Shown here: positions 24,962 through 44,256 of the stretch, piece after piece
Position numbering within the stretch: position 1 is the stretch's first letter
Layout of the letters: each line of letters begins with the position of its first letter
Origin: Blastopirellula sediminis
GTDB taxonomy: Bacteria > Planctomycetota > Planctomycetia > Pirellulales > Pirellulaceae
Length of the DNA stretch: 64,000 nucleotides
Reading direction: 5' to 3'
Assembly (NCBI RefSeq): GCF_020966755.1
Contig: NZ_JAJKFT010000004.1
Location: forward strand, 1,116,001-1,180,000
Notes under the pieces: generated by a model
Databases searched by the model: none
What the model saw: only the letters and a program-made list of their open reading frames with translations
What the model was told of the DNA's origin: nothing
Position numbers and translations under genes: made by a program

Positions 24962-25222
24962 ATGATGGGGACCGAAGCAAACTCACCGCCGCCTGAAGTT
25001 TTCACGTGGCTGCGCAAGGAAATCGCGGAACGACGTCAGATTCGGATCGACTTGATCCAGCCTGAGAGTTCCTTGGCCGAAGATTTGATTCCTGACTCGT
25101 TCGAATTGATCGAGTTGGCGACCGCCGTCGAGCAACATTTCGGCGTGCGGATCGACTTCGATGAAGTCGCCGACATTGATACGCTTGGCGACTTCAGCGC
25201 CTTGATCGAAAGCAAACGCTAA
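24962..25222 (+). CDS. Acyl carrier protein-like (phosphopantetheine-binding) protein
   Basis: 86 aa, PP-binding domain. The attachment serine is Ser46 in [20 protein letters not shown], where the usual DSL reads DSF. The acidic helix II ([11 protein letters not shown]) and [16 protein letters not shown] match the ACP fold. Ahead of it is a 15-residue extension. GGAGG at 24955-24959 sits just before tandem ATGs at 24962 and 24965; the second has better spacing. This is a specialised ACP, perhaps serving the acyl-assembly genes at 28.9-39.7 kb, but that is inference. It would be activated by AcpS. Confidence 0.8.
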
Positions 25223-25254
25223 GTCTCTCTCCCTCTCCCAACGCGACGAACAAC

Positions 25255-25842
25255 ATGCCTGCGAAAAAAATCTTGATGCTGGTCGGCGACTTCGTGGAAG
25301 ACTACGAAGTGATGGTGCCGTTTCAGATGTTGCTGATGGTCGGCCACCAGGTCGATGCGGTTTGCCCTGATAAGAAAGCGGGCGAATCGGTCGCTACGGC
25401 GATTCACGATTTTGTCGGCTATCAGACTTACATCGAAAAGCAGGGGCACAACTTCACGCTGAACGCGACGTTCAGCGAGATCGACCCGGCCAGCTACGAC
25501 GCGCTGGTCATCCCCGGTGGTCGCGCTCCGGAGTACCTGCGGCTTAATCCCCGTGTGATCGAGATCGTGCAGCACTTCGCCAAGGCGGACAAGCCGATCG
25601 CTTCGCTCTGTCACGGACCGCAAATCCTGGCGGCGGCTGGCGTCCTCGACGGCAAGTCATGCAGCTGCTACCCGGCGGTCTCGCCCGAAGTGTCGCTCAG
25701 CGGCGGGACGTTCGTACCGGCGAGCGAAGGCTATGACAACGCACATGTCGACGGCAATCTGGTTACCGCGCCCGCCTGGCCGGCTCACCCGGCGTGGATC
25801 CGAGCTTTCTTGGAAGTGCTCGGGACGAAGATCACGCTGTAG
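25255..25842 (+). CDS. DJ-1/PfpI family protein
   Basis: 195 aa, class I glutamine amidotransferase-like fold. The nucleophile elbow is [13 protein letters not shown] (Cys near residue 122) with the conserved Glu in FVEDYEV (near residue 15) and the GGRAPEYLR strand. C-terminal [21 protein letters not shown] is typical of PfpI/YhbO-type proteins, which act as stress chaperones, glyoxalases or deglycase-like enzymes. The exact reaction cannot be predicted. It begins 33 bases after the ACP-like gene, so the two may share a transcript. Confidence 0.85.
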
Positions 25843-27597: not shown

Positions 27598-28356
27598 CTA
27601 AGCGCCAGCGACGACCGGAGTGCGGGGGACGCCGTACTGGGCATGAATTCCTTCGATAAACTCTTCGAAGATCCGTTGATCCAGGGCCGAGGCCGATTCG
27701 GCTTCGGGATGGAACTGCGTGCCGATGGCGACCCAATCGTCGCCGGCCCATTCGATCGCTTCGATCAGGCCATCGGGAGCGCGAGCGGCGACTTGGAAAC
27801 CGGGCGCGAGTTCGTCAATCGCCATGTGGTGCATGCTGTTGACGCGAACTTCGCCGTCACCATAAATGCGGTCCATGATCGTACCGGGAACCACTTCCAA
27901 GCCGTGACGATGACCCGCGTCGATCGGATCTTTGTGCGGCAAAGCGGTCGGCACGTCGGCCGGAATATGGAAGAACAAGTTGCCGCCCATCGTAATGTTG
28001 AGCAATTGCAGGCCAACGCCGATGCCGAACACGGGCATACGACGACGAACGACCAGCGACATTAGGGTGCGATCGAGATCTTCACGGCGCGACTCCATCG
28101 GGCGAACCGACGCGTGGCGCATGAATCCGTCGCGATGCGGATCGAGATCGGGTCCACCGATAAACACGATCCCATGCAGTCGATCGAGAATCGCTTCCAT
28201 ATCCGCCGCTTCGGCGACCGGTGGAATTACTACGGGAATGCCGCCAGCAGCGATAATCGAGTCGTAGTAACCTGCCCCGACAAACGAAAAGGCGGGACGG
28301 TCATGGGTAGCCGGGCGAAAATTGGCGTTCAAGCCGATCAACGGTTTGGATTGCAT
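27598..28356 (-). CDS. Peptidase C26 (PuuD-like glutamine amidotransferase) homologue without the catalytic Cys
   Basis: 252 aa, gamma-glutamyl-GABA hydrolase-like fold. Family blocks are PLIGLNANFR, VFIGGPDLDPHRDG (PuuD GGxDV region), LQLLNITMGGNLFFHI, VNSMHHMAIDELAPGF and IGTQFHPEAESA (the catalytic His-Glu). The nucleophile elbow, normally GICRGxQ, reads GIGVGLQ: residue 113 is Gly (GGC) where Cys (TGC/TGT) is expected. Hydrolase activity is therefore unlikely; it may be a binding or regulatory pseudo-enzyme. It diverges from oleA across 585 bases, and the MITE-like element lies right behind its stop. Confidence 0.75.
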   Translation of the reverse strand: MQSKPLIGLNANFRPATHDRPAFSFVGAGYYDSIIAAGGIPVVIPPVAEAADMEAILDRLHGIVFIGGPDLDPHRDGFMRHASVRPMESRREDLDRTLMSLVVRRRMPVFGIGVGLQLLNITMGGNLFFHIPADVPTALPHKDPIDAGHRHGLEVVPGTIMDRIYGDGEVRVNSMHHMAIDELAPGFQVAARAPDGLIEAIEWAGDDWVAIGTQFHPEAESASALDQRIFEEFIEGIHAQYGVPRTPVVAGA

Positions 28357-28941: not shown

Positions 28942-30084
28942 ATGAATTTTCATAACGTCTGTCTAGAGTCGTTCGGATACGTATTGCCGGCCGAAATCGT
29001 CACCTCGGATCAGCTGGAAGCCCGCTTGGCTCCGCTGTACGAGCGTCTGCGTCTACCGGCAGGACGGCTGGAATTGATGACCGGCATTCGCGAGCGACGC
29101 TTCTGGTCGCCTGAGACGATGCCGAGCGAGATCAGCATCGAGAGCGGTCGCAACGCGATCGAAGCGGCCGGTATCGACGTCGGCGAAATTGGCGCGCTGG
29201 TCCATGGTTCGGTCTGTCGCGACCATCTGGAACCAGCGACCGCTTGCCGCGTGCATCATGAGCTCGGGCTGCGACAAGACTGCGTCATCTACGACGTCTC
29301 GAACGCTTGCCTGGGCCTGCTGAGCGGCGCACTGCAGATCGCCAGCATGATTGAGCTGGGCCAGATCCGCGCCGGGCTGGTGGTTGGAACTGAAAATGGG
29401 CGTCAGCTGGTCGACAACACGATCCGCACGCTCAACGAAGATATGAGCCTGACGCGCAACCAGATCAAGCTGGCGGTCGCGTCGCTGACGATCGGCTCGG
29501 CCAGCTGCGCGATGCTGCTGTGCGATCGCGAGCTGAGCCAGACGCAGAACTTGCTGCATGCCGCCGCCGTGCGTGCTCATACGCAGCATCATCAACTTTG
29601 TCACAGCATCGCCGGATCAGGCGAGACCGGCGTCGGCAGCCCGCTGATGCAGACCGACTCGGAACGGCTGATGCTGGAAGGGATCGAAGTTGGCGGCGCC
29701 ACGTTCGACGACTTCCTCCGCAACTCACGCTGGAGCCGCGAAGAAATCCAGCGGACCTTCAGTCACCAGGTCGGCCTGACCCATCGCAAGCTCGTCTTGG
29801 AACGTTTGGGCCTGACGACCGACAACGATTTCGCCACGGTGCAGTGGCTCGGCAATACCGGCTCGGCCGCGCTGCCGGTCACGATGGCGATCGGCGCCCA
29901 GACCGGACGAATCCGCCAAGGGGATAACGTCGCGATGCTCGGCATCGGCTCCGGCATCAATTGCGTGATGATGGGAGTCGATTGGCAAGAGGCCCGCGTC
30001 CGCGGGGCAGGGGAGTTGCCGGCCGAAGTACTGCAAGTCGATCGCGATCAAGACGCAACTACTTGTTCATCGTCCGCTCAATAA
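28942..30084 (+). CDS. oleA: OleA-type acyl condensing enzyme (thiolase superfamily, annotated elsewhere as FabH-like)
   Basis: 380 aa. OleA joins two fatty acyl chains head to head into a 2-alkyl-3-keto acid, the first step of long-chain olefin or beta-lactone synthesis. The catalytic cysteine is Cys123 in [12 protein letters not shown]; the Glu essential in OleA is matched by Glu97 in [10 protein letters not shown]; the His is in FSHQVGLTH; the Asn is in [11 protein letters not shown]; the end reads [13 protein letters not shown]. These agree closely with the Xanthomonas OleA sequence as I remember it (SRDYLEPST, DVANACLAFINGM, LLGIGSGLNC). FabH lacks the Glu-containing block. Its 3' end overlaps fabI on the other strand by 26 bases. 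Confidence 0.82.
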
Positions 30085-30862
30085 TGTCGCGATCGAAGTA
30101 GTTGATCGACATCCCCGCGTCGACCACCAGGTTCTGCGCCTGGATGCCGCTGCTTCGCGGGCTGAGCAAAAAGATCGCCACGCTGGCCGCTTCGTCGGTT
30201 TGCAGCGCCTTCTTCCGCGGGATCGCTTGTTCGGCGAACAGGTAGGCGTCGACATAGCCGGGAATCCCGGCCGACGCCGACGTCTTCAGCAAGCTCGGAC
30301 CCACGGCGTTGAAGCGAACGTGCGAAAACTGGCTGAAACTCTTCGCCAGAAACGCGAGCGACGAATCGAGCGCCGCTTTGATCGGGGCCATGAAGCCGTA
30401 GTTCTCGCTCGCCATCCGCGTGGTTGAAATCGAAATCGTCACCACCGATGCGTCGTGCGCGAAGAGATCCTTCAGCGCGTTCGATAAGGCGACTAGCGAG
30501 AAGCAACTGATGTCGACCGCTTGCAGGAACTGCTTCTTGGTCGTTTCGTGGAACGGCCGCATCCCTTCGCTGTAGTCGGCGAAGGCGATCGAGTGAACCA
30601 GCCCGTTGATCACCTGGTGATTCGCGGCGATCTTGTCCGTTAGGGCGGCGATTTCCTCTTCACGCTCGACGTCGCAGACATGCACTTCGCGGTCGGCCAG
30701 CAGCTTCGCCAGGCTTTCTTTGCGGGCCTCGCTACGGACGACGTAGACGACTTTGGCGCCTTCGCCTTCGAGCATCTCCGCGATCTTCCACGCGATGCTC
30801 TTCCGGTTGGCGACGCCGGTGACGACGAAGGTTTTGCCGGCCAGTTGCAGGAAATCGCTCAC
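30059..30862 (-). CDS. fabI: Enoyl-ACP reductase, FabI-like
   Basis: 267 aa NAD(P)H-dependent short-chain reductase that reduces the enoyl-ACP in each elongation round. [16 protein letters not shown] (residues 16-31) is the FabI-type dinucleotide motif. The catalytic pair keeps FabI spacing: Tyr155 and Lys162 in [15 protein letters not shown] (Tyr-x6-Lys). [11 protein letters not shown] and [15 protein letters not shown] fit the substrate loop. The GTG at 30862 starts four bases beyond the fabZ-like stop, preceded by GGGAGAG, so it is coupled to that gene. An upstream frame to 30907 would overlap fabZ and was rejected. Last gene of the ten-gene run, overlapping oleA tail-to-tail. Confidence 0.85.
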
Positions 30863-30866
30863 GCGG

Positions 30867-31298
30867 TTACTCTCCCGGCGCCGGAGCCAAGGTGCAGGCG
30901 AAATCAAACCGAACCGCGACTTTCCCTTCGCAGGTCGCTTTCCCCTGCATGAAGAAGGCGTCCGCCATCCGCTCGGTCAGCTTCACTTCCATTTCGATGG
31001 TGTCGCCGGGGCGGATCATCTTTTTGAACTTCACGTCGCTCAAGCGGGTCGCAACGGGAACTCCCTTGCCTTCGGCGGCGAACTTCGACAGCAGGATCGC
31101 GCCGCACTGCATCGTCGCTTCGCACAGGATGACGCCGGGGACGAGCGGGAAGTCGGGGTAATGCCCTTGGAAGAAGTACTCGTCAGCGTGGAAGGTCTTG
31201 CGGCAGACGATCGTATCTTCGGTTTGGCTGACGATCTCGTCGACCAGCAGCATCGGCGGTCGGTGCGGGATCGCCGCGTAAATAGCCTGGCGAGTCAT
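30867..31298 (-). CDS. fabZ: 3-hydroxyacyl-ACP dehydratase, FabZ-like
   Basis: 143 aa hot-dog fold enzyme that dehydrates 3-hydroxyacyl-ACP. [13 protein letters not shown] opens the protein as in FabZ. Catalytic His46 lies in [15 protein letters not shown] and Glu60 in [28 protein letters not shown] is the second conserved strand region. Five bases after the CrtI-like gene and four before fabI on the same strand, so translationally linked. It is probably a pathway-specific paralogue rather than the housekeeping dehydratase, because it sits with ACP, FabF, FAD oxidoreductases and ole genes; substrate chain length is unknown. Confidence 0.85.
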
Positions 31299-31303
31299 GT
31301 AGC

Positions 31304-32755
<1,452 letters not shown>

Positions 32756-32825
32756 GCGTGAACTCGATCTGATTCTGAAGCTATTGGATGTGACTGGGCC
32801 GCGTCGCGAGGAGTACGGCGACCGA

Positions 32826-34217
32826 CTAGCTGGCGGACTGCAAGACGTGCCGATTGGCGATCGACAAGCCGCTGACGATCGACCCTATGATACCGACAAA
32901 ACCTTGGTCTGTCCCGCAGATGTAGAGGTCTTTCAGGTGCGTTTCGCCGCTCAATCGCTTGTCGGGGGCGCCATACACCGCGCCGTTGTCGTGCCACGTG
33001 TAACGATGGATCGTTTTCGGCGTGAACATGTCGGTCGCGACGATATGCCGGCGGAAGTCAGGGATAAACCGGACCGCCGAAGCGACCGCCGCGTCGTACC
33101 ACTTGAGCTTCGCCAGTCGATACTCATCGTCCGACATCGTAGTCCAGCGGTCGAAATTGGCCAGGGTCGTGATTCGCATGAACCCTTCGTCCAGCTGCGC
33201 TTCGCCGGGATAGACGAAGTTGTTGGGAGAGCAGATCACGCCGGTCCGCGTATCGCAGATCTCGCCGCGGGGCATCTCCCAGTGGAACTTTTCGGAATCG
33301 TTGTAGAAGACGATGGTCGGATCGAAGCCGACGTCGCGCGGTTGCTTGTCGAGGACCGAGATGCTCTCGATAAAGCTAAGCACCCCCGGCGAGCCTTCCA
33401 GCTTCTCTTGAGGTTGCCCGCACATCCGCATCGTCTCGAACCAACCGGCCGAGGAGATGATCTTGCGGGCTTGCAACTCTTCGCCGCTGTCGAGGACGAC
33501 GCCGACGGCGCGATCTCCTTCCTGCACGATTCGCTGCACGCCGTTCCGCAGTCGCAACTCGCCGCCGAGTTCGCGATACTTGCGAACCAGGTTCTTCAGC
33601 AGTAAACGAACGCCCTTGTACGGTCGGGCGAAACCTTCCAGGAAGATGCTGCGGAACATGATGCAGAACTGTCCCCAGTCCATGTCCCGTTCTCGCGCGT
33701 TGCCGTACCACATCAGCGGGCAGAGGATCATCTCGACCAACAGCGGATCGCCGAGCGTCTCGTACAAAATATCGCGAGCCGATCCGGCGTAGTTGTCGTC
33801 GGAGATGTCGTCGTAGTCGATGATGTTGTCGAGCAGCCGCTGAAACGCGTCGGCCTTGCCGGGGAACTTGGCGGCGACTTCGCTCTTGAGCAATTCGATA
33901 TCGTTATCGAACGCCAAGGTGACGTCCGGAAACGAAATCAACGAGCCGCGTTGTTCGCAGAGGGCGAACTCTTCCCACTTGAACCGCAACTGCCGCAGCA
34001 GCCGACCGAGCGGACCGCGACGGTCTCCCTTCGGCGCATAGTTGGTCACCGCATGCAAACCGACGTCGAAATCGCGTCCGGCCATCCGGTAGAACGAGTT
34101 GAGCCCGCCGATCGTGTAGTGGCGCTCGAGGATGCAAACGTTCTGTCCGTAGTAAGCGAGCCGAATTCCGGCCGACAAACCCGACATCCCAGCGCCAATG
34201 ATGATCGCGTCGTACAT
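32826..34217 (-). CDS. CrtI/phytoene desaturase-like FAD oxidoreductase 2
   Basis: 463 aa, paralogous in layout to the protein at 31304-32755. FAD motif [24 protein letters not shown] with [23 protein letters not shown], and C-terminal [33 protein letters not shown] stretch [22 protein letters not shown] differs from the first protein, so the two probably act on different positions or steps. Between them they could desaturate or isomerise an ACP-bound chain. 77 bases after the ACP gene; same transcript likely. Confidence 0.8.
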
Positions 34218-34294
34218 GGAACAATAGCTGGGAAAAGCGAACGGTTACGGTTGCGAGCGGCGCGCGAGACGCGCCGCTTGCCGATAGGGCCTGT

Positions 34295-34546
34295 TTACAG
34301 GTCTTTCATGAGGGGTTCGAGATAAGCGACGGTGCTCGCCATCGAACCGAGTTCCGGATAGTCTTCTTCCGGAATCTGAACGCGGTGACGCTTGCGGAGT
34401 TCCATGACGATGTCGAGGAAGTCCATGCTGTCGAGTTCGAGTTGTTCGCGAAACGGCTTCGCGTCGTCGATGTCGGAAATGTCGTCATCTGGAGCGATGT
34501 CGCGCAAGATGTCTAGAACTTCCTCACGAATTTCCGCTGGCGTCAC
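34295..34546 (-). CDS. Acyl carrier protein (pathway-specific)
   Basis: 83 aa. The phosphopantetheine serine is Ser40 in ELDSMDFLDIVMELRKRH; the first helix (IREEVLDILRDIAPDDDI) is standard. The Asp-Ser-Met-Asp-Phe motif and the basic helix LRKRHRVQIP differ from housekeeping AcpP, whose helix II is strongly acidic, suggesting dedicated partner enzymes. 25 bases after the FabF-like gene. Likely carrier for chains built by FabF/FabZ/FabI here; activated by AcpS (4818-5231). Confidence 0.85.
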   Translation of the reverse strand: MTPAEIREEVLDILRDIAPDDDISDIDDAKPFREQLELDSMDFLDIVMELRKRHRVQIPEEDYPELGSMASTVAYLEPLMKDL

Positions 34547-34571
34547 TGCGTTATCTCTCCTGCGTTGCCGC

Positions 34572-35825
34572 TTAAAGTTTGCGAATGATGGCTACTGAGT
34601 TGATCCCTAACATACCGAACGAATTGTTCAGGATGTAACGGACCGGCCCGATTTCTTTGGGCTGATTGATCACGAGTCCTGGCAGTTCGCAATCGGGGTC
34701 GAGGTCGTCGACGTTGATGGTCGCATGGACGACGCCGTCTGCAAACGCCGGCAAGTTGCCGGCCATTTCCAAAGCGCCGGCGGCGCCCATCGCGTGGCCG
34801 ATGAAGCTCTTCGTGTTGTTAATGTACGTCTTTTCGCTCTTACCGAAGATTCGCCGCAATGCGTCGCATTCCTGCGAGTCGCCGAGCGTCGTGCCGGTGG
34901 CGTGCGTGCTGACGATGTCGATTTGTTCGGCGGCGAGTCCGGCTCGCTTCAGGGCGAGTTCAACGCACTCGGCCTGACGTTCGGGGTTCGGCAGAACGAA
35001 GTCGGTCGCGTCGGTATTCATCGCGTAACCGGCCAGTTCGCCATAGATCTTGGCGCCGCGCTTCTTCGCGTCCGAGAGACGCTCCAGCACGTAAACGCAG
35101 CCCCCTTCCGCGACGACGATGCCGTTACGGGCTTTGTCGAAGGGGCGCGACGCCTTTTCCGGCGTGTCGTGATGGGCCAGCGCGCCTTGGCTTTTGAAGC
35201 CGGCGAAAATGCCGAAGGTGTGAATGCTTTCCGAGATCCCGCCGGCCAGGGCGACGTCGCATTCGTCCAGACGCAACATCTGGGCGCCTTGGATCAAACC
35301 CGCGTTCCCGGCGGCACAAGCGGCGCCGATCGTGTAATGCGGTCCGGTGATCGCCCGGTTCAGGCAGATTTCGCCGGCCGGGTTGTTGGCGACGGTCCGC
35401 GGGTTGTGGTGGTGCGACCAACAGCTGGTGTCGTAGTCGTACCCCTTCAGCTCGTAGACTTCGTTTTCGGTCTCGACGTTGCCATGTTCGGTGACGCCCA
35501 TGTAGACGCCGACGCGGCTTTTGTCGGTGTTTTCCCAGTCGATGCCGGAGTCGGCGATCGCTTCGGCCGAGCAGTAGATGCCGATGCTGCCGGCTCGGGT
35601 ACCGCGACGGACTTCCCGTTTCGTCTGGTAGCGTGTCGCCTCGAAGTCGCAGATGCCGGCCAGCGTGTCGCCGACATATCGGATGTGGTAGTTCTGAACG
35701 CCGCTCTTACCTTCCAACAGCGCAGACCGGTACTCGGCATACGAATTGCCATTCGGAGAGGTCAAACCGATCCCCGTAATGACGATGCGCTGCGAATCCG
35801 GAAGTTGGTCGGGGCCCGCGATCAT
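34572..35825 (-). CDS. Beta-ketoacyl-ACP synthase, FabF-like (KAS II family)
   Basis: 417 aa elongating condensing enzyme. Catalytic triad: Cys170 in TIGAACAAGNAG, His308 in STHATGTTLGD, Lys339/His344 in NNTKSFIGHAMGAAG. It begins RIVITGIGLTSPNG, the usual KAS N-terminus, and ends NNSFGMLGINSVAIIRK, the family tail with GGxN replaced by LGIN. Nearby CWSHHHNPRTVANNPAGEI is a distinctive insert compared with FabF. This marks a specialised KAS of the kind found in polyene and ladderane-candidate clusters. Between oleD (91 bases upstream) and ACP. Confidence 0.88.
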   Translation of the reverse strand: MIAGPDQLPDSQRIVITGIGLTSPNGNSYAEYRSALLEGKSGVQNYHIRYVGDTLAGICDFEATRYQTKREVRRGTRAGSIGIYCSAEAIADSGIDWENTDKSRVGVYMGVTEHGNVETENEVYELKGYDYDTSCWSHHHNPRTVANNPAGEICLNRAITGPHYTIGAACAAGNAGLIQGAQMLRLDECDVALAGGISESIHTFGIFAGFKSQGALAHHDTPEKASRPFDKARNGIVVAEGGCVYVLERLSDAKKRGAKIYGELAGYAMNTDATDFVLPNPERQAECVELALKRAGLAAEQIDIVSTHATGTTLGDSQECDALRRIFGKSEKTYINNTKSFIGHAMGAAGALEMAGNLPAFADGVVHATINVDDLDPDCELPGLVINQPKEIGPVRYILNNSFGMLGINSVAIIRKL

Positions 35826-35916
35826 GAAGTGCTACCGAAGGGTCCAGAGAAACAATCCAAACTACCGCTTCGCCTGCATGTTGACAAGATATGGACGACG
35901 AATGGAGGAGCGTCGA

Positions 35917-36903
35917 TTAGAGGGTTTCGGCCAGTCGCCGCATCCCTTCTTGCGTGTTAATTTTTGGGGCATAGCCGAAATCATGACGCGCCGCGGCGAT
36001 GTTGAAATAATGGTTGGTCGCCAACTGAGCCGCCAAAAATCGGGTCATCCGCGGTTCGCTGTTGTATTTCCCGAGGATTCGGTAGCCCCACTCCATCAGC
36101 CAGCCGATCGCATACGCGGCGCGATACGAGATTTTCCGGGTCAGCGGAGGAATTTTAGCCAATTTCAGCAGCTCATTAATCCATACCCAGCACATGACCG
36201 GCTCCCCCTGGCTGAGGAAGTACGCTTTTCCGCAAACCTTGCCCCCCTCGCGCAGCGCGTCGGCCGCCTGAAGATGGGCGAAGGCGGCGTTTTCGACATA
36301 AATCATGTCGACCATATTCCGGCCATGCCCGACAATCCGCAGTTTGCCTGATTTCGCGCGTTCGATCAGTCGCGGAATCAGGTGCTGGTCGCGTGGCCCC
36401 CAGATCAGATGGGGACGCAAGGCGCAGGTTAGCAGCTTGCCTGGCTGATTGGCCTTCAGCACGTACTGCTCGGCGATCGCTTTGCTGCGGGGGTAATGGG
36501 CGAGCCAGCGAGTCGGGTAGGGGACCGATTCGCCGACGCCGTTCTGATCGGTTCCGTCGAACGTGACGCTCGGGCTGCTGGTATAAACCAGGCGGCTGAC
36601 GCCATGCTCGTGACAGCCGGCGACGACGTTCTCGGTCCCGACGACGTTCGCCTGATAGAAATCTTCCCAGCGTCCCCAGATGCCGGCGATCGCGGCGGTA
36701 TGAAAGACGACGTCCATGCCGGCACAGGCCTGGGAGACAATGTTGGCGTCGGCGACGTCGCCGCGCACGCATTCGACTCCCAGCGCCGTCAAGTCAGGAT
36801 AGTCGCGGCGTCCGAGAACGCGCACCTGATCGCCGCGCGCGAGCAATTGCTCGACGACGTATCGTCCAAGAAAACCTCCACCGCCGGTGACGAGCGCACG
36901 CAC
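35917..36903 (-). CDS. oleD: OleD-type NAD(P)-dependent reductase (3-beta-HSD/epimerase family)
   Basis: 328 aa. OleD reduces the 2-alkyl-3-ketoacid made by OleA to the 3-hydroxy acid. Extended SDR fold: GGGGFLGRYVVEQLLARG (residues 7-24) binds NAD(P); RLVYTSSPSVTFDG carries the catalytic Ser; Tyr137 and Lys141 lie in HYPRSKAIAEQ. Blocks VFHTAAIAGIWG, ALRPHLIWGPRDQHLIPRL, VDMIYVENAAFAH, AYFLSQGEPV and the end DFGYAPKI..GMRRL closely follow Xanthomonas OleD as I recall it. 33 bases behind the zinc-ribbon protein gene and 91 before fabF-like. Alternatives such as a sterol dehydrogenase are less likely given oleA and oleC nearby. Confidence 0.82.
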   Translation of the reverse strand: MRALVTGGGGFLGRYVVEQLLARGDQVRVLGRRDYPDLTALGVECVRGDVADANIVSQACAGMDVVFHTAAIAGIWGRWEDFYQANVVGTENVVAGCHEHGVSRLVYTSSPSVTFDGTDQNGVGESVPYPTRWLAHYPRSKAIAEQYVLKANQPGKLLTCALRPHLIWGPRDQHLIPRLIERAKSGKLRIVGHGRNMVDMIYVENAAFAHLQAADALREGGKVCGKAYFLSQGEPVMCWVWINELLKLAKIPPLTRKISYRAAYAIGWLMEWGYRILGKYNSEPRMTRFLAAQLATNHYFNIAAARHDFGYAPKINTQEGMRRLAETL

Positions 36904-36936
36904 CAGATCCGCCTTTCTTTGCTGCTTTGTCGAGAG

Positions 36937-37935
36937 TTAGTCGAGACCTTGGATCATCGAGCGGGGGACTTTGAATCGGAACGATCCCCCTCCGCCGACT
37001 GCCTGACCCGGCAGGTCAAGATAGAGATTTTGCACCGTCTTCGGATTGAAGTTTTCGCCGACGTCGAAAACGATCGAATCGGTTCCGTCTTCCTTCGGCT
37101 CGAACGTCTTTTCGGGCGTGTTCCACTTCAGCTTGGCGATGTCGTCAAAGCGAAGGGGATAGTAGACATTCCGTTGTTCGTCCGAGAGCTGCGCGGTGCG
37201 GAAACCGGCCGGCGATTTGAACTCGGTGCCGTACCACGTTTTGAAGTCAATCGGTTTGCTGGAACGGTTGCCGATCTCGAGGAAGACGACCATGAACGGC
37301 TGTCCGGAAGTGACCAGTTCGCCGCGCTCATCCTGGCCGCGAACTTCGCCCCACTCGACGTGATGAACTTTGACCTTCAGGCCGTCAATGTTCAGGCTTT
37401 TCCTGGTCGCATCGGCCCAGTTGATGTAGAAGTCAGGATCGTTCTCCGCGCGATCCATCACGTCCTGAATCTTGTTGCCGACGTTGGTGTTGGTTTCGGT
37501 CGCGACCGTGTTGTCGGGCTCTTCAACGCTTCCGCTGCCGACAAACAGATACTTGCCGACCGCGAAGACCAGGAACAAGGCGACCGCGCCGACGCCGCCG
37601 GCCACGATGTTGAAGATCAGCTTTTCATTCTTCTTGAAGAACGAAACTTCTTCGTCACTTTCGGTCGCTTCTCCTTCAGCGCCGGGAGCGGCCGGTTTCG
37701 GCTTTTTCGGCGCTGGGGTCCGGCGACCAGGGGCGTTCGGTCGCGTTTGTAGGGACGGAGCTTGAAGAGTTGGCGGCTGCGGCGCTTGCATGACCGGAGG
37801 AGCCGGCGGAGCGGCCGGAGTCGCCGCGAGATCCGGAACCATGAACTGACCGCTGCAGCTAGGGCATTGCACCTGGGTACCGGCAGGCGATTGGATTTCG
37901 AGCACAGTCGAACAGTGAGGGCATCGCATTTGCAT
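36937..37935 (-). CDS. Zinc-ribbon, single-span membrane protein
   Basis: 332 aa, no named family. Residues 1-30 form a zinc ribbon (MRCPHCSTVLEI..VQCPSCSGQFMVPD). A Pro/Ala-rich linker follows, then a predicted transmembrane helix (IFNIVAGGVGAVALFLVFAVGKYLFVG near residue 150). The remainder (VHHVEWGEVRGQDERGELV, PFMVVFLEIGNRSSKPIDFKTW) reads as a beta-rich DUF4352-like domain outside the membrane. Start chosen where the zinc ribbon begins (ATG AAA-type reads MQMRCPHC), with GGAG upstream; longer frames are unlike the family. It sits inside the ole gene run between oleC (37 bases) and oleD (33 bases), so a link to the pathway or its membrane site is possible but unproven. Confidence 0.7.
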   Translation of the reverse strand: MQMRCPHCSTVLEIQSPAGTQVQCPSCSGQFMVPDLAATPAAPPAPPVMQAPQPPTLQAPSLQTRPNAPGRRTPAPKKPKPAAPGAEGEATESDEEVSFFKKNEKLIFNIVAGGVGAVALFLVFAVGKYLFVGSGSVEEPDNTVATETNTNVGNKIQDVMDRAENDPDFYINWADATRKSLNIDGLKVKVHHVEWGEVRGQDERGELVTSGQPFMVVFLEIGNRSSKPIDFKTWYGTEFKSPAGFRTAQLSDEQRNVYYPLRFDDIAKLKWNTPEKTFEPKEDGTDSIVFDVGENFNPKTVQNLYLDLPGQAVGGGGSFRFKVPRSMIQGLD

Positions 37936-37972
37936 CGGGCAGGAACTCCAGACTCTTTGTAACGCTTCTATT

Positions 37973-39661
37973 TTAGTCTTGCGGCGGCTGGTCGAGTCGC
38001 TCCTCGGCCCAAACCGCCAGCTTTTCCCGGAAAATCTTCGCATTGTGGCGAATATCGACCGGAAACGCGGGATGTAAAAGGAAGTCGTGAATCGATTCGG
38101 TCAGCGGATGCGGCGCGCACTGCTCACCCACTTCGGCCAATAGCGCGGTAATCGCTTCTTTGGTCTGCGGATACTTGTCCGGCCATGGTTCCACGATCAT
38201 CACGGGAAACTGTTGACCAGGTTCCCCCACGCCGACCAATGCGCTCCGGTAGATCGCGGGATGATTGTTGGCGATCGCTTCGCACGGAATTGTGAACATG
38301 TCGCCGTCGGGCGTTTGCACGCGATGCGCTTTACGACCGCAGAACCAGAAGCGATCGTCGGCGTCGAGATAACCGACGTCTCCCATTCGATGCCAGATCC
38401 GATCTCCATCAGCGATCTTCGCCAGCTTCGTCGCTTCTTCGCTGGTGAAGTAGCGCCGCGTAACGACCGGGCCAGAGACGATCAACTCGCCGATTTCTCC
38501 AGCGTCGACGGCTTCGCAATCGTCGATCGTCGCGATCGGCGCGTCGCTGATCCGGATAACGCGCCACTCGATGCCGCTGAAGCGACGACCAACGCAAGTG
38601 CCGGCGCCTTGTTGCGATTGCAGTTCGGTCCCTTCGAGCACTTCGCTCGCGGCAATCGAAGCGATTGGCAATGCTTCGGTCGCGCCGTACGGCGTGTGGA
38701 TGTCTCCTTCGGGATGAATCACGTTCTTCATCCGCCGCAGCACATGCGGCGGAACTGGCGCGCCAGCCGAGAGGACGCGCTTCAGCGTGGGGAGACGAAT
38801 CTGATGCTGCTCGCAGTAGAGTCCGACCTTGTTCCAGACGGCTGGCGATGCGAACGACTGCGAGATCTGCCAGTCGTGGATCGGTTCGATGATGTTCAGC
38901 GGATTAACCGCAGCGGGACGACTCGCGTCCATTTCCGGTATGACCGACGTCACCCCCATCGCGCTGTTGAACAGGCCGAACAGCGGAAAACCAGGCAAGT
39001 CGATTTCGCCCGGCTGAATGTCGTAGCGATCGCGAATCTGCTGGACTTGTTCGTAAAACCCTTCATGCCGGAAGAGAACGCCCTTCGGCGGTCCGGTGCT
39101 GCCGGTCGTGAAGATGATCGCCGCCGGATCATCGTCCGCTGCAGCGAACGGTTGAAACTGAGTGACGTCCGCTTTCCGCAGGTCTTCGATCGTCGGGCCG
39201 CCCCAAAACCAGCGGCGGCCGACGGTGACGTTCTTTTTCGCTCGGGCGTAGCGGCGTCCCATCAAGACGCGGACAGCCTGCACGATCGAGATCGCGACGA
39301 ACCCTTCCGGCTCGACCTGATCAAGACAGCGAAGCAGATTTTTACGTCCCATGCCGGGATCGATCAGCACGCTCACCGCGCCGACTTTGAATAGGGCGAA
39401 GACGAGCGAGACGAAGTCGATGCTCGGTTTGACCAGTAGGGCGAGCCGCGTCCCCGGCGTTACTCCCATCTCCGCCAATCCAGCGGCCAGTCGAGTACTA
39501 TCCGCTTCTAGCTGGGCGAACGTAATCGTCTTGTAGATGCGCCGGCCATCTGGTCCGCGACGACCTGGGGTCGCAATCGCGACAGCATCGGGGCGCTCCT
39601 CAGCGACTTGTGCCAGGAGAAAGCCGACGTTCTTGGTGGTGGTCGAAGCGGCGGTCGCCAC
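37973..39661 (-). CDS. oleC: OleC-type AMP-dependent beta-lactone synthetase
   Basis: About 562 aa, ANL (acyl-CoA ligase) superfamily. OleC uses ATP to close the 2-alkyl-3-hydroxy acid to a beta-lactone. The ATP loop is IIFTTGSTGPPKGVLFRHEG; TPYGATEALP is the A5 motif; RMGDVGYLDADDRFWFCGRKAHRV is the A7-A8 region. The end HPAFPVDIRHNAKIFREKLAVWA is nearly the same as in Xanthomonas OleC as I remember it; that C-terminus separates OleC from ordinary fatty acid ligases. The start is uncertain: the frame is open to a TTG at 39733, which would overlap the ATP-grasp gene by 26 bases; GTG at 39661 is my choice. Confidence 0.82.
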   Translation of the reverse strand: MATAASTTTKNVGFLLAQVAEERPDAVAIATPGRRGPDGRRIYKTITFAQLEADSTRLAAGLAEMGVTPGTRLALLVKPSIDFVSLVFALFKVGAVSVLIDPGMGRKNLLRCLDQVEPEGFVAISIVQAVRVLMGRRYARAKKNVTVGRRWFWGGPTIEDLRKADVTQFQPFAAADDDPAAIIFTTGSTGPPKGVLFRHEGFYEQVQQIRDRYDIQPGEIDLPGFPLFGLFNSAMGVTSVIPEMDASRPAAVNPLNIIEPIHDWQISQSFASPAVWNKVGLYCEQHQIRLPTLKRVLSAGAPVPPHVLRRMKNVIHPEGDIHTPYGATEALPIASIAASEVLEGTELQSQQGAGTCVGRRFSGIEWRVIRISDAPIATIDDCEAVDAGEIGELIVSGPVVTRRYFTSEEATKLAKIADGDRIWHRMGDVGYLDADDRFWFCGRKAHRVQTPDGDMFTIPCEAIANNHPAIYRSALVGVGEPGQQFPVMIVEPWPDKYPQTKEAITALLAEVGEQCAPHPLTESIHDFLLHPAFPVDIRHNAKIFREKLAVWAEERLDQPPQD

Positions 39662-39707
39662 TGATGTTACCGTTCGGGGAAAGCGAAAGGGATCAAAGCT
39701 CGGTAAT

Positions 39708-40616
39708 CTAGGCCGATGAGCGGCTCTCCACAACCGCCCGAACGTGGGAAAGCGTTTCCGCGGCGATATCGGCCTGACAGGCGGCGGCCAGCGCTTTCCA
39801 GCCGGGAACGCCGTTCACCTCCAAGAGATAAAGGCTTCCATCCTTGCCTGGCAGCAGATCGACGCCGGCCATGTCGAGCTGCAGCGCGTCGAGCGATTGG
39901 AGGGCGATCTCGAGCTGTTCATCTGTTGGAGCGTGCGGTCGACTCTCGGCGCCGCGCTGGACGTTGGTTCGCCAATCGCTGACGCTATGCCGCGTCATTC
40001 CCCAGATTTTGCCGCCGATAGCGAGGACTCGGATGTCGTAGCCGTCATGCGGTACGAACTTCTGGAGAAAGAGAACTGAGTCGGTCCGCGATAGCGTTTT
40101 GAAGACCCGCTCGGCCAGATCGGGAGATTCGACCCGCAGAATTCCACGGCCTTCCCCTCCGAACAGCGGTTTGACGACGACGTCGCCGCCGAGGGTCTCG
40201 TAGGCGGCGAGGGCATCTTCCCACGTTTCGCAGAGATAGGTCTCGGGAACCAAGATTCCGCGAGCCGCGAGCCGCGAGAGGGTCAGATACTTGTCGATGG
40301 CGATTTCAAGACTGCGGGGGGCGTTCAGAACGACGGCGCCCTGGCGTTCATATTCGGCGAGCCAGTTCATGCGGTAGATGACTTGCTCGAGACTGCCGAG
40401 CGGCATCGTCCGGACTAGCAACGCTTGCAGCAGGTCGGCATTTTGCTGATCGCCGTGCGAGAATTGGGCCGCTTTGCCGACGGTCGCCTGCAGGCGGCGG
40501 AAGTCGACCGTCGTGACGTCAATCTCCCCCAGTTTGGCGGCGGCGCGGGTCAGATCTTGGGCGTACCAGCTATCTGGCGCCGCGAGCAATCCGACCTGTA
40601 GAGGGGGCTTGGCCAT
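39708..40616 (-). CDS. RimK-like ATP-grasp ligase
   Basis: 302 aa ATP-grasp enzyme that probably ligates an amino acid to a carboxylate. ATP-grasp blocks: IAIDKYLTLSRLAARGILVPET, DVVVKPLFGGEGRGILRV (phosphate loop), LFLQKFVPHDGYDIRVLAIGGKIWGMTRHS and AGVDLLPGKDGSLYLLEVNGVPGWKAL (metal-binding Asp/Glu/Asn). It resembles RimK/MptN, which adds glutamate to ribosomal protein S6 or to tetrahydromethanopterin; mch at 43282 makes the cofactor role plausible. It heads the minus-strand run and its end meets or overlaps oleC, so it could instead serve that pathway. Confidence 0.78.
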   Translation of the reverse strand: MAKPPLQVGLLAAPDSWYAQDLTRAAAKLGEIDVTTVDFRRLQATVGKAAQFSHGDQQNADLLQALLVRTMPLGSLEQVIYRMNWLAEYERQGAVVLNAPRSLEIAIDKYLTLSRLAARGILVPETYLCETWEDALAAYETLGGDVVVKPLFGGEGRGILRVESPDLAERVFKTLSRTDSVLFLQKFVPHDGYDIRVLAIGGKIWGMTRHSVSDWRTNVQRGAESRPHAPTDEQLEIALQSLDALQLDMAGVDLLPGKDGSLYLLEVNGVPGWKALAAACQADIAAETLSHVRAVVESRSSA

Positions 40617-40794
40617 CGAAAACCGCCAGACGCGGGGCTTTGATCTGAATAATCAGGAAAATGGAAACAATCGATTCAATCGTTAGAGTCGAACTGCCGA
40701 TCACCATAGTGACAGAATCTTATGCACGCTAGCCGTGGCCGCAAAACCAAGGGCAACAAGCCGAAGTCATAGTTCAGGGTCGGGAACCGAAAAA

Positions 40795-41163
40795 ATGCAA
40801 GTCAAAGTCTACGTACCGAAAACCGTCGAAATTCCGAGCGAATACCTGCCGGCTCTCGTTCAACGCGCCAACGACAATCTGGGCGACGCTGGACGTAGCG
40901 TTGCGGCCTCGCGCGGTCACCTGGTTCGCCAAGCCGTTCGTGACGGCCTGCTTCGCGAACTGGATCACCTGATGAGCGAGGACGACGCGGTCGATCTCTA
41001 CTGCGATCCGGGTAGCGAGATTCCGTTGGAAATCGAAAATCGCACCGTCACGCTAACCGAACTTCTCGAAGCTTTGCAGAACAAGAAAGCTTCCTGGGGG
41101 ATTAAATCCGAAGATCTCTCCGACAAACAGCCCGGCATTACTCCGCGACGCCGGGCCGCCTAG
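40795..41163 (+). CDS. Hypothetical protein, 122 aa
   Basis: No named family. Soluble protein: VKVYVPKTVEIPSEYLPALVQRANDN, a helical RGHLVRQAVRDGLLRELDHLM, and VDLYCDPGSEIPLEIENRTVTLTELLEALQNKKASWGI, ending in a basic PRRRAA. The ATG at 40795 is preferred; a GTG at 40735 would add 20 Ser/Arg-rich residues. A strong hairpin follows at 41204. On the plus strand between two minus-strand transcription units. Confidence 0.6.
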   Translation: MQVKVYVPKTVEIPSEYLPALVQRANDNLGDAGRSVAASRGHLVRQAVRDGLLRELDHLMSEDDAVDLYCDPGSEIPLEIENRTVTLTELLEALQNKKASWGIKSEDLSDKQPGITPRRRAA

Positions 41164-41203
41164 TTTCCAGGATTGCGGCCGAAAATTGGGCATCGAAAAC
41201 CAG

Positions 41204-41237
41204 GCAGGACGTGCTATCGCAGCACGTCCTGCTCTCA
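41204..41237 (+). terminator. Probable terminator after the hypothetical gene
   Basis: GCAGGACGTGCT, loop ATCGC, AGCACGTCCTGC: a perfect 12-bp stem followed by TCTCATTTCTT, a weak T-rich tract. It begins 41 bases after the stop codon. Confidence 0.6.
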
Positions 41238-41446
41238 TTTCTTGGGGGGCTGCATGGGGCCTAGTCGACTTTTCGGTTTGGCGGAACTCTAGCGGCCAAG
41301 TTAGCTGTCCCATCCAAGTTCGTTTGATGCCGCATGGTCCCTGTTAAAACCCGATCATCTCCTACATCAAGGAACACTGTTATTTCGATGGCAAGGATCG
41401 GAATAACTAGTTAGGGGTCAGCGAATACGGGCAGGCGGAACCGAAA

Positions 41447-43285
41447 ATGCATACGGGGCTAACGAGTCGCAGGGCTGATTGTCCGCTATGCGGAACAGCT
41501 CTGAAGCGCGACGAAGATAGCGTCCGCGATTTGTGGAATTGCCACAGTTGCGGATTGTCGATCGAGCTTGCGCAGCCGCGTGACTCGATGCCAGATCTGG
41601 CCCCAGCCCGCAGCGGTCCGCTGTGCGACGACAAAGACGAAGATCAACTCGATCGTTGGCTCGCCGGCAAGCCGATCGAACGCAAAGTTCCCCCTCTGAC
41701 TCGCCGGCTGCAGCGTTGGTCCCAGGAAAACTGGGGAGCGGTTACGTGCTTTCTGATTGCGATGCTCGGCGTCTCCGGCATTGCGGCTCATGCGATGCAA
41801 AACAGCGTCGTCGCCCAGCGACAATTGGCGGATGAACGTGCCGCCCATGCTACGACCCGCGAGCAAGCGGAACAGCGCGACGAACAGCTGCGGCTGTTGG
41901 TCGACTCGGCCCAAATCAAAGCGCGGGCGCTCGGTAAGCAGCTGGATCAGGCCCGCTTGGAATCGCGGCGCGACTTGTCGCTGCGTCTGGCGGATGAAGC
42001 GACGCGGCTGGAGCAAGCGGCGCCGCAACGTTCGCTGATGTTGGCGGCCGAATCGGTGCAGATCGCTCGCGACTCGCGGCATTTTCCGGCCGCCGGGGCG
42101 GTTCAAGTTTTGTTCGATCAGTTGCAGGATCAATCGCGGCTTCGCGCATCCGGACATAGCGACGTGGTCCGCTCGATCGCCTTTAGCGGCGACGGCACGA
42201 TGTGGGCCAGCGGCGGCGACGACAATCGCGCCATTCTGCATAGCTTCGACGGACGACGAACTTCGATTCCGCTGGAAGCTCACTGGAGCCGCGTCAGCCA
42301 GGTCAAGTTTTCGCCCGATTCGCGCAAGTTGGCGACCGCCAGCTTTGACGCGACGATCTGCTTGTGGGACGTCCGCAGCAGCGAAGTGGCGCAGTCGCCG
42401 GTCGTGTTGTCGGGACATGACGAACGGGTCCTGTCGATCGACTTCAGCGCTGACTCGCGTTGGCTCCTCTCGAGCGCTCAAGCGGCGCCGGGGAGTCCGA
42501 GCGAAATCTTGTTGTGGGATCTGCAAGCGAAGGGGCACCCGCAAGTCACGCAGACGTTGGGTCAGCATTTCGGTCGCGTCCATGCGGCGCAGCTCAGCCC
42601 CGATGGACGCTGGGCCTTTACCGCTTCGGCCGATGGATTCGTCCAGCTATGGCGGCTCAATCCGAAGAGCGGCGATCGAATGACGGTCGCGATGCGGGCC
42701 CAGCATGGTTTGACCGATCGGGTCTGTTTCTCGCCCGATAGTTCGCAATTGGTGACGGTTTCGGAAGGGAGTAATGGGGAGTGCGTCATTCGCCGTTGGC
42801 AGTTGGGCGAAATGATTCGTCCCGAGACGATCGCAACCTTGAAGATCGCTCCCTTGGCGGCGGACGTTGATTTCAAGAATGAAAACGTCGTGATCGGCGG
42901 CCAGCGTGGCGAACTGAAGGTGGTCAATTGGAATCTGCGGACGATCACCCCGGTGGTTGGCCATGAGCAGCGAATCCAATTGGTTCGTTTTCTGCCGGAT
43001 GGAGCGCTGGCCTCGGTCGATCAGCAAGGACTTGTACGCCGGACGCTTCTGGGTGGCAAAGACGAAATGGCGCTCGGCGTGAAGTTGCCGCAAGTTACCG
43101 GCCAAATCGAAGCGGCGGCGATTTCCGCCGATGGTCAGTGGGTCGCGGTGACCAATGAAAAGCGGGAAGTGATGATCCGCCAACTCGATCCAACGATCTT
43201 GATGGGGGTTGCGTTCGATCGACTGCAATCGCTCAGCGGCGACGTCGAAGTGATCGCCTCACAGCCGAGCGAAGAACGTCGCTAG
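41447..43285 (+). CDS. Zinc-ribbon/transmembrane/WD40 repeat protein
   Basis: 612 aa. Residues 12-36 form a zinc ribbon (CPLCGTALKRDED..NCHSCG). A transmembrane helix lies near residues 103-120 (VTCFLIAMLGVSGIAAHAM), then a coiled coil to about 210 (QLADERAAHATTREQAEQRDEQ, RLADEATRLEQAAP). From about 235 onwards come WD40 repeats: HSDVVRSIAFSGDGTMWASGG, HWSRVSQVKFSPDSRKLATAS with ATICLWDV, HDERVLSIDFSADSRWLLSS with EILLWDL, and more. This is the membrane-WD40 layout common in planctomycetes, often with kinase domains, here absent. Probably a scaffold; partners unknown. It is convergent with mch, whose stop is close to its own. Confidence 0.78.
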   Translation: MHTGLTSRRADCPLCGTALKRDEDSVRDLWNCHSCGLSIELAQPRDSMPDLAPARSGPLCDDKDEDQLDRWLAGKPIERKVPPLTRRLQRWSQENWGAVTCFLIAMLGVSGIAAHAMQNSVVAQRQLADERAAHATTREQAEQRDEQLRLLVDSAQIKARALGKQLDQARLESRRDLSLRLADEATRLEQAAPQRSLMLAAESVQIARDSRHFPAAGAVQVLFDQLQDQSRLRASGHSDVVRSIAFSGDGTMWASGGDDNRAILHSFDGRRTSIPLEAHWSRVSQVKFSPDSRKLATASFDATICLWDVRSSEVAQSPVVLSGHDERVLSIDFSADSRWLLSSAQAAPGSPSEILLWDLQAKGHPQVTQTLGQHFGRVHAAQLSPDGRWAFTASADGFVQLWRLNPKSGDRMTVAMRAQHGLTDRVCFSPDSSQLVTVSEGSNGECVIRRWQLGEMIRPETIATLKIAPLAADVDFKNENVVIGGQRGELKVVNWNLRTITPVVGHEQRIQLVRFLPDGALASVDQQGLVRRTLLGGKDEMALGVKLPQVTGQIEAAAISADGQWVAVTNEKREVMIRQLDPTILMGVAFDRLQSLSGDVEVIASQPSEERR

Positions 43286-44256
43286 AGTTCAAAACTCTCG
43301 CGTAACAGCGCTTCCGACGTTTCGCCGAATGAGTGAAGTCGGTCGTTATTGACGTTGATCCACGTCACCTGCGCTGGGCTGAAGAGCATCGGGTCGATTT
43401 GATAGAAATCGAACTTGGCGTCGCGCAAGATCTTCTCAAACGGCGTGCCGAAGGCAGGCGAACTGCTGCTGGGCAATTGGCGGCCGACGTCGCTGATTTC
43501 TTCGTCTTCGGCGTCGACCCATAACGTGACGTGTCCGCCGTAGAGGATCGCATCGTTGGTGCGGCCAATCCCTTGAACGTCGTTTTTCGCCAGCGGCGGC
43601 AGCGGGGCCGTTCCCTCGGCTTTGACAATCTTTTTCAGATCAAAATGAAGCTCGTGCAGCTTGTGCAAAGCTGTTTCGACGCTGCGCGCGACGATCTGCA
43701 CATGCCCCGCGACGCTGGCGGTACGTGCGACGAGCAATCGCAACTGATTCGGCTGAACGCCGCACTGCTTGGCGATTTCAACGCAAACTTCCTCCGGCGG
43801 AAGCTGCGCCGTCTCTAGTACTCCGACCGCGACGTCGGCCGACTCCGCAAGTCCCAGTTCGGCAATCAGCGGCTCTTTGCCAGCGAGCGCTCGCATTGGA
43901 CCGGAAGCCATCGCGAAGAACTCGCCGTGCAACACCTTCCAGCCGGCATATTGCGAACCCATGCAAGCGACGACCGGCTGATCCGTCTTCACATGCACGT
44001 CGAGAGGTACGCCGGCGAGACTTCCCAGCGTGAACTTGACTTCCCCTAATCCGGAAAGGCAAACCTCGGCCAACTTCAGTCCGGCGGATTGTCCGCCGGC
44101 CGCTCCGATTCCCAGGTCGAGAATCTGCGTCCCGCACGGGCTTTCGTGGACGATGGCCTGATATTGCTCGGGCTGGTCGATGATCGCCTGAGCGGCGGCC
44201 CATGCTCGTTGGTTAAGGTTCAAAAGGGGGCTCCGTAGATGAAATTGCTTACCCAT
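43282..44256 (-). CDS. mch: Methenyltetrahydromethanopterin cyclohydrolase
   Basis: 324 aa. Hydrolyses methenyl-H4MPT to formyl-H4MPT in tetrahydromethanopterin-linked one-carbon metabolism, used in archaea, methylotrophs and planctomycetes. Family blocks seen: LDLGIGAAGGQSAGLKLAEVCLSG, VVACMGSQYAGW, FFAMASGPMRALAGKE, ADVAVGVLETAQLPP, LLVARTASVAGHVQIVARSVETALHKLHELHFD (the most diagnostic, near residue 200) and GRTNDAILYGGHVTLWV. Length matches known Mch. The only other H4MPT candidate here is the ATP-grasp ligase at 39708. It ends four bases inside the stop of the WD40 gene on the opposite strand. Start at ATG 44256; no clear ribosome-binding site. Confidence 0.92.
   Translation of the reverse strand: MGKQFHLRSPLLNLNQRAWAAAQAIIDQPEQYQAIVHESPCGTQILDLGIGAAGGQSAGLKLAEVCLSGLGEVKFTLGSLAGVPLDVHVKTDQPVVACMGSQYAGWKVLHGEFFAMASGPMRALAGKEPLIAELGLAESADVAVGVLETAQLPPEEVCVEIAKQCGVQPNQLRLLVARTASVAGHVQIVARSVETALHKLHELHFDLKKIVKAEGTAPLPPLAKNDVQGIGRTNDAILYGGHVTLWVDAEDEEISDVGRQLPSSSSPAFGTPFEKILRDAKFDFYQIDPMLFSPAQVTWINVNNDRLHSFGETSEALLRESFEL

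Follow-up and report, generated by a model that had tools for sequence, protein, structure and literature searches.

Genes for a putative type II polyene acyl synthase joined to OleA, OleC and OleD in the planctomycete Blastopirellula sediminis

In Shewanella and its gammaproteobacterial allies, Pfa and Ole proteins together give the 31:9 hydrocarbon hentriacontanonaene (PMC6463001). 'Type I' secondary lipid synthases with a pfaBC fusion occur with ole genes in Geobacter and Gemmata, have been proposed as suppliers of olefin precursors, and have been linked to the same hydrocarbon (PMC3098273). Rattray and others (2009) proposed another origin for polyunsaturated fatty acids (PUFA) in Kuenenia stuttgartiensis and Desulfotalea psychrophila, namely clusters of type II fatty acid synthesis (FASII) genes with phytoene-dehydrogenase-like genes. 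D. psychrophila makes C31:8 and C31:9, has no polyketide-type PUFA route and carries three phytoene-dehydrogenase-like genes in FASII clusters, and C31 polyene hydrocarbons are also cited for planctomycetes, from papers on Schlesneria paludicola and Singulisphaera acidiphila (PMC2649909). The anammox gene order kuste3603-3607 is listed in PMC4790861, according to which CrtI-like enzymes of the ladderane cluster gave no lycopene when tested. Planctomycetes have already been reported to carry oleC or ole genes (PMC10176705, PMC7158056). The subject of this report is a run of genes at positions 28942-40616 of a 64,000-nucleotide stretch of Blastopirellula sediminis DNA (contig NZ_JAJKFT010000004.1, positions 1,116,001 to 1,180,000; "the window" throughout), in which OleA, OleC and OleD lie together with a FASII block that includes two CrtI-like flavin adenine dinucleotide (FAD) enzymes, CrtI1 and CrtI2.

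We consider it probable that this cluster encodes a polyene acyl synthase of the dissociated (type II) kind that feeds the Ole pathway, replacing a type I PUFA synthase as the supplier of OleABCD and probably leading to a C31:9-like hydrocarbon. An earlier note on this DNA had suggested a functional link between the Ole and Fab genes from their interleaving. That link now finds support in the co-occurrence of the two sets across planctomycetes, in the exclusion of a type I PUFA-synthase-like gene, and in the OleA tree.

Partners of OleA in planctomycete genomes

Four proteins served as queries against one set of 343 planctomycete genomes, at thresholds of E 1e-20 for OleA, 1e-60 for CrtI1, 1e-25 for the dehydratase region of the Pfa-type gene and 1e-35 for OleB (in our labels G is a genome, G000 being that of the window, L a locus, and f a family of the sample). 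Matches were found in 125 genomes for OleA, 80 for CrtI1, 46 for the Pfa-type region and 126 for OleB. The earlier note had named a Fab block that always occurs without Ole genes as evidence that would speak against the link; the block, as marked by CrtI1, is accompanied by both OleA and OleB in 78 of 80 genomes, and the other two are incomplete assemblies (G273, 80% complete, with a CrtI1 fragment, and G341, 61%). CrtI1 and the Pfa-type gene, a multidomain gene with a tandem FabA-like dehydratase region, are together in none of the 343 genomes, and G000 has no match to the latter at E 1e-25. The Pfa-type gene is itself accompanied by OleA in 43 of 46 genomes (the misses are G065, G079 and G123), and in 121 of the 125 genomes with OleA one partner is present without the other. 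Four have neither: G282 (54% complete), G253 (80%) and G289 (81%), on contigs of 4.5-16 kb, and G003. CrtI1 is spread over 10 families of the sample and the Pfa-type gene over 21; f3 and f48 include genomes of either type. The case of G003 may represent another pathway, with two OleA-like matches close together on a stretch that lacks OleB, OleC and OleD (L249:4078-8006).

OleA also divides according to its partner. Rows for trees and alignments were picked for family spread (9 CrtI1, 9 CrtI2, 21 ketosynthases (KS), 18 FabZ, 10 acyl carrier proteins (ACP) and 44 OleA), and the OleA tree draws on 28 of the 78 CrtI-type and 16 of the 43 Pfa-type genomes, with two rows (G171, G220) from genes with matches in two pieces. 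The proteins split by partner across one branch with a support of 100/100, in a bootstrap that is not fully settled, and the OleA of the window falls in the CrtI-partnered clade. The split persists even between members of one family with different partners (f3 and f48), and f3 genomes whose OleA lies far from the block conform to it as well.

In 36 of 43 genomes the Pfa-type match and OleA are at most 20 kb apart. In L053, L057, L060 and L070 an open reading frame (ORF) of ~2,200 codons directly precedes OleA, and the only one domain-tested, that of L057, is PfaBC-like, with a KS, an acyltransferase and two FabA-like domains. That the type II block occupies the place which a PUFA-synthase-like gene has in sister genomes is our chief ground for expecting its chain to be polyunsaturated.

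Where KS, ACP, CrtI2, CrtI1, FabZ and FabI all lie on one run, their order is constant; the ways in which the block is joined to ole genes number at least five. OleC-OleD-block faces OleA in the window and L033 (with a variant, OleC-OleD-block-OleB, in L117); OleABCD and block are divergent in L049, L102 and L103; OleABCD is followed by the block in L107, L109 and L110; the order is OleA-block-OleB-OleC in L099, L100, L101 and L108, and block-OleA-OleB in L056 and, from CrtI1 on, in L112. Loci of f7, f21, f25, f30 and f32 have OleB inside the joined cluster. A possible MarR-like regulator is encoded between OleD and the block KS at L109:6570-7169 (f25; similar ORFs in L052, L107 and L110), the Pfam match being weak at 26.2 bits against a cut-off of 27.

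Genes of the window's run

OleA (28942-30084, + strand) is convergent with a co-directional run on the - strand comprising, by rising coordinate, FabI-like, FabZ, CrtI1, CrtI2, ACP, KAS II, OleD, zinc-ribbon and OleC genes. All of the genes named in the earlier note were recovered in the places and families it gave, and its figure of less than 92 bases for every gap agrees with a measured maximum of 91; four junctions overlap, by 26-71 bases, that with a RimK-like gene included. The end that it set for the run, at OleC, does not stand, since this RimK-like ATP-grasp gene (39708-40616) continues the run.

OleA scores 440.7 bits against PRK09258 (cut-off 285). Its best 12 PDB sequences (3fk5, 3row, 4ku3 and others; E 1.6e-51 to 4.3e-49) form a group that we take to be Xanthomonas OleA, the PDB naming it only '3-oxoacyl synthase III', and the next ones, at E 9.8e-27 or worse, are FabH-type. 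Cys123 and Glu97 align with 'NACL' and 'LEPST' of the best group. Score, ranking and residue alignment together identify the OleA-type enzyme with these two residues that had been predicted from motifs, and not FabH, the assignment that would have counted against it. OleC (37973-39733, true start probably later), an AMP-binding beta-lactone synthetase, passes PRK09274 with 695.3 bits (cut-off 478) and falls under both OleC equivalog models, which are its next best (592.8 versus 900 and 534.4 versus 850). For OleD (35917-36903), the probable 2-alkyl-3-oxoalkanoate reductase, the top matches are two OleD models, at 405.0 and 398.7 bits, below the cut-off of 580.

Family searches of the run's proteins found no OleB among its genes. 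An OleB homologue of the same genome lies ~0.43 Mb from the run (G000:C4:1588421-1589263) and is 41% identical to the OleB of L056 and 52% to that of L100, references that were named by position and homology; the genome has one further weak homologue. By the logic of PMC7064751, with OleB present elsewhere in the genome, the product is expected to be an olefin rather than a beta-lactone.

The Fab block has the residues of a type II elongation module: the Cys-His-His of KS, the Ser of ACP, the His and Glu of FabZ and the Tyr and Lys of the enoyl reductase. In the KAS II-type KS (34572-35825), C170, H308, K339 and H344 are invariant among 21 aligned sequences, as are Ser40 of ACP (34295-34546; motif DSMD) among 10 and His46 and Glu60 of the FabZ-type dehydratase (30867-31298, also placed by family match) among 18, the window being included in each set. 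The KS signature TEHGNVETE and HHHNPR, present here, is shared by all 21 block proteins and GMLGIN by 19 of them; the 11 other KS compared have none of these. The best PDB matches of FabZ (7qv0, 8ayb, 8ayc, 8ayi) may be a Kuenenia enzyme, an attribution that a literature check did not confirm. The FabI-like enoyl reductase (30059-30907) keeps Tyr170 and Lys177. At the site of an upstream second Tyr in two FabI structures it has Ile160, as does every one of the 18 sequences aligned, the window's among them. This exchange is less striking because InhA has Phe at the same position.

No ketoreductase was found in the window's run by family searches of its proteins. Loci of f7, f20, f30, f32, f34 and f48 have a ketoreductase-like ORF between CrtI1 and FabZ, the start of which resembles a short-chain reductase, and for L056, the only locus so tested, Pfam identifies it as one; the ORF scan did not find it in L099, L108 and L084. 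A block of this kind can thus hold the whole elongation cycle, that of the window being without a ketoreductase. The idea that this is a private type II synthase survives in part. Beside the block KS, which has a signature of its own, G000 has another seven KS regions at 27-36% identity to it (two in very long frames and five stand-alone). Privacy is less sure for the reductase: the block FabI is the sole FabI-type reductase found in G000, with no second one at E 1e-25 and no FabK match over cut-off (27 bits), FabV not being searched, and it may also serve general fatty acid synthesis.

CrtI1 (31304-32755) and CrtI2 (32826-34217), assigned by family match, tree and model, each form one clade of their own (support 100/100). 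Both have a CrtI/amine-oxidase FAD fold with an N-terminal dinucleotide-binding motif, and FAD/NAD-binding Pfam matches. Their structure models (mean predicted local distance difference test score 89) have a carotenoid-desaturase fold, and the best structural match of both is the gamma-carotenoid desaturase 4rep, with template modelling (TM) scores of 0.73 and 0.76. The top NCBIfam match of CrtI2 is carotenoid isomerase (5.3e-25); for CrtI1, carotenoid isomerase (1.9e-28) is level with CrtD (1.7e-28). No plasmid-borne CrtI1 was found at E 1e-20. Among the named loci, L194 of Rhodopirellula baltica has CrtI1, and L187, from a Gimesia assembly, has KS-ACP-CrtI2-CrtI1. Two loci titled Candidatus Kuenenia stuttgartiensis (L191, L193) have a CrtI1 69% identical to that of the window, unlike the anammox-like genomes, and are perhaps from mislabelled assemblies.

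The remaining genes are neighbours of narrower distribution. The zinc-ribbon gene (36937-38043, true start probably later) is present here, as the earlier note had it, but as a lineage-specific neighbour and not a general member of the cluster: elsewhere it was found in two of 80 named loci and in L033 and L077-L079. RimK-like ATP-grasp and MCH genes (39708-44256 here) directly precede OleC in L077-L079, L117, L121, L135 and L153; the window differs, with a WD40 gene and another ORF between the two. On the other side, a second ACP gene followed by a DJ-1/PfpI gene (24962-25842) forms a pair that shares a stretch with OleA in L033, L035 and L036, and a peptidase C26 gene adjoining OleA (27598-28356) is kept in L033-L037 and in four named OleA loci (L121, L132, L133, L134).

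A proposed pathway and its alternatives

In the pathway that we propose, KS, ACP, FabZ and the FabI-like reductase would elongate an ACP-bound chain, with a ketoreductase supplied from elsewhere in the case of the window's block, and CrtI1 and CrtI2 would insert double bonds, or move them and set their geometry. OleA would then fuse two chains head to head, OleD would reduce the ketone, OleC would form the beta-lactone, and the unlinked OleB would remove CO2 to leave a long polyunsaturated hydrocarbon, most likely of the C31:9 or C31:8 kind. A wider proposal has, in our view, about an even chance of being right: the block would be a PUFA synthase of dissociated build, a type II system not assigned before and perhaps independent of oxygen, whose two CrtI-fold FAD enzymes work on the chain while it grows on ACP and replace the FabA-like domains of Pfa. 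It would then be a general engine for polyunsaturated hydrocarbons in OleA bacteria without Pfa, including the C31 polyenes of planctomycetes and perhaps those of D. psychrophila.

Several observations weigh against a dedicated polyene synthase for OleA. Of the 78 genomes with both genes, only 31 have CrtI1 and OleA within 20 kb of each other. Among CrtI1 loci fetched since OleA was not near, 16 of 20 have no Ole gene on the stretch (some stretches being short), and the same is true of seven of the 18 further loci L099-L116; in the f3 loci L082, L084, L086, L087 and L088, CrtI1 is apart from the block KS and the block is broken up. The named CrtI1 loci, the best 80 of at least 573 relatives (79 with planctomycete names and one only 'bacterium'), hold OleD in 18 cases, OleA in five, OleC in four and OleB in two, many being cut by contig ends. 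The genome counts overstate the number of events, because the lineages are not phylogenetically independent, and for that reason the value of a Fisher test on the co-occurrence should not be taken as a probability. Finally, neither FAD enzyme passes the crtI family TIGR02734 (81.0 bits for CrtI1 and 59.7 for CrtI2, cut-off 238.1), and with scores so far under the cut-off desaturation is not implied.

What the FAD enzymes do is also where the most serious alternative departs from our proposal. It is possible, at somewhat less than even chances, that they are double-bond isomerases: FabZ would leave trans-2 bonds, CrtI1 and CrtI2 would shift them, and the pathway would otherwise be the same. FAD-dependent fatty acid isomerases of the CrtI fold exist, such as PAI of Propionibacterium acnes, and carotenoid isomerase is the top family of CrtI2 and level with CrtD for CrtI1. 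The FabA-like domains of type I PUFA synthases are thought to shift double bonds; with two of them in the alternative gene of L057 and a FabZ-type dehydratase in the block, an isomerase is just what the block lacks. Yet a carotenoid desaturase ranks first in the structure search for both proteins, and two FAD enzymes are kept, not one. We think it unlikely that the block builds ordinary chains and that the FAD enzymes act later, on the finished hydrocarbon or ketone, to give the polyene. The nearest folds, those of carotenoid desaturases, do work on free hydrophobic chains, but both FAD genes lie between ACP and FabZ wherever ACP, CrtI2, CrtI1 and FabZ share one run, and the exclusion of the type I PUFA-synthase-like gene points to acyl-chain supply.

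A beta-lactone end product, as in oleACD clusters without oleB, would fit the lack of OleB among the genes of the run; it became disfavoured once OleB was located elsewhere in the genome, and with OleB also in 78 of 80 CrtI1 genomes, and inside the joined cluster in five families, we regard it as very improbable. Equally small is the probability we give to a housekeeping or ladderane-type synthase that adjoins the ole genes by chance. In its favour, the genome yielded no FabI-type reductase besides that of the block, and anammox-like genomes have similar FabZ-FabF-FabF-CrtI clusters at seven loci (with an ACP match in three), in the order of kuste3603-3607. We took genomes to be anammox where the hydrazine-synthase-alpha model matched a frame of ~810-840 codons; this Pfam model by itself matched 58 of 343 genomes, and many of them several times, in frames of other kinds. 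Against chance stand the distance of the anammox-like CrtI proteins, which fall outside both clades, the absence of the ten such genomes searched from the OleA matches, the five other stand-alone KS-like genes beside a block KS with its own signature, and the several Ole-Fab gene orders.

Relation to known systems

A link between such a FASII-CrtI block and ole genes was not found among the listed matches of searches of the open PMC literature, outside which subscription papers mostly lie, so that novelty is unproven. What appears to be new is the tie of the block to OleA-D, the exclusion of the Pfa-type gene, and the co-inheritance of OleA with the block. The block may well be a PUFA synthase of a new kind. 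It could explain how bacteria without a giant PUFA synthase make polyunsaturated membrane hydrocarbons, and a gene set that swaps with a type I PUFA-synthase-like gene as the partner of OleA makes the origin of C31 polyenes directly testable. If the proposal is true, PUFA would be built here by a modular set of single enzymes, with which the anammox ladderane clusters could be compared.

Xanthomonas OleABCD resembles the window in the homology of OleA, OleC and OleD; it draws on the ordinary acyl-CoA supply and is not known to have a FAS block. The likeness to Pfa-OleABCD of Shewanella would go further, in that OleA-D join two unsaturated chains and a dedicated synthase feeds OleA, which in the window would be separate KS, ACP, FabZ, FabI and two FAD enzymes instead of a multidomain protein. 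The pfaBC fusions of Geobacter and Gemmata have a counterpart of the same build before OleA in the planctomycete locus L057, but those are multidomain, and the available text of PMC3098273 names no CrtI-like enzymes with them. The anammox and D. psychrophila clusters are alike in combining FASII genes with two or three CrtI-like genes. They differ in that no Ole link was drawn for them, the word oleA being absent from PMC2649909, and in the radical S-adenosylmethionine genes that are prominent there in its available portions, of which there are none among the tested genes at 28942-40616. Orthology with the anammox CrtI of the kuste3607 or 3336 type, labels that rest on gene order, was rejected at 23-27% identity over long stretches and with positions outside both clades. 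To judge from these sequence comparisons, the resemblance to the anammox clusters is one of design and not of close orthology.

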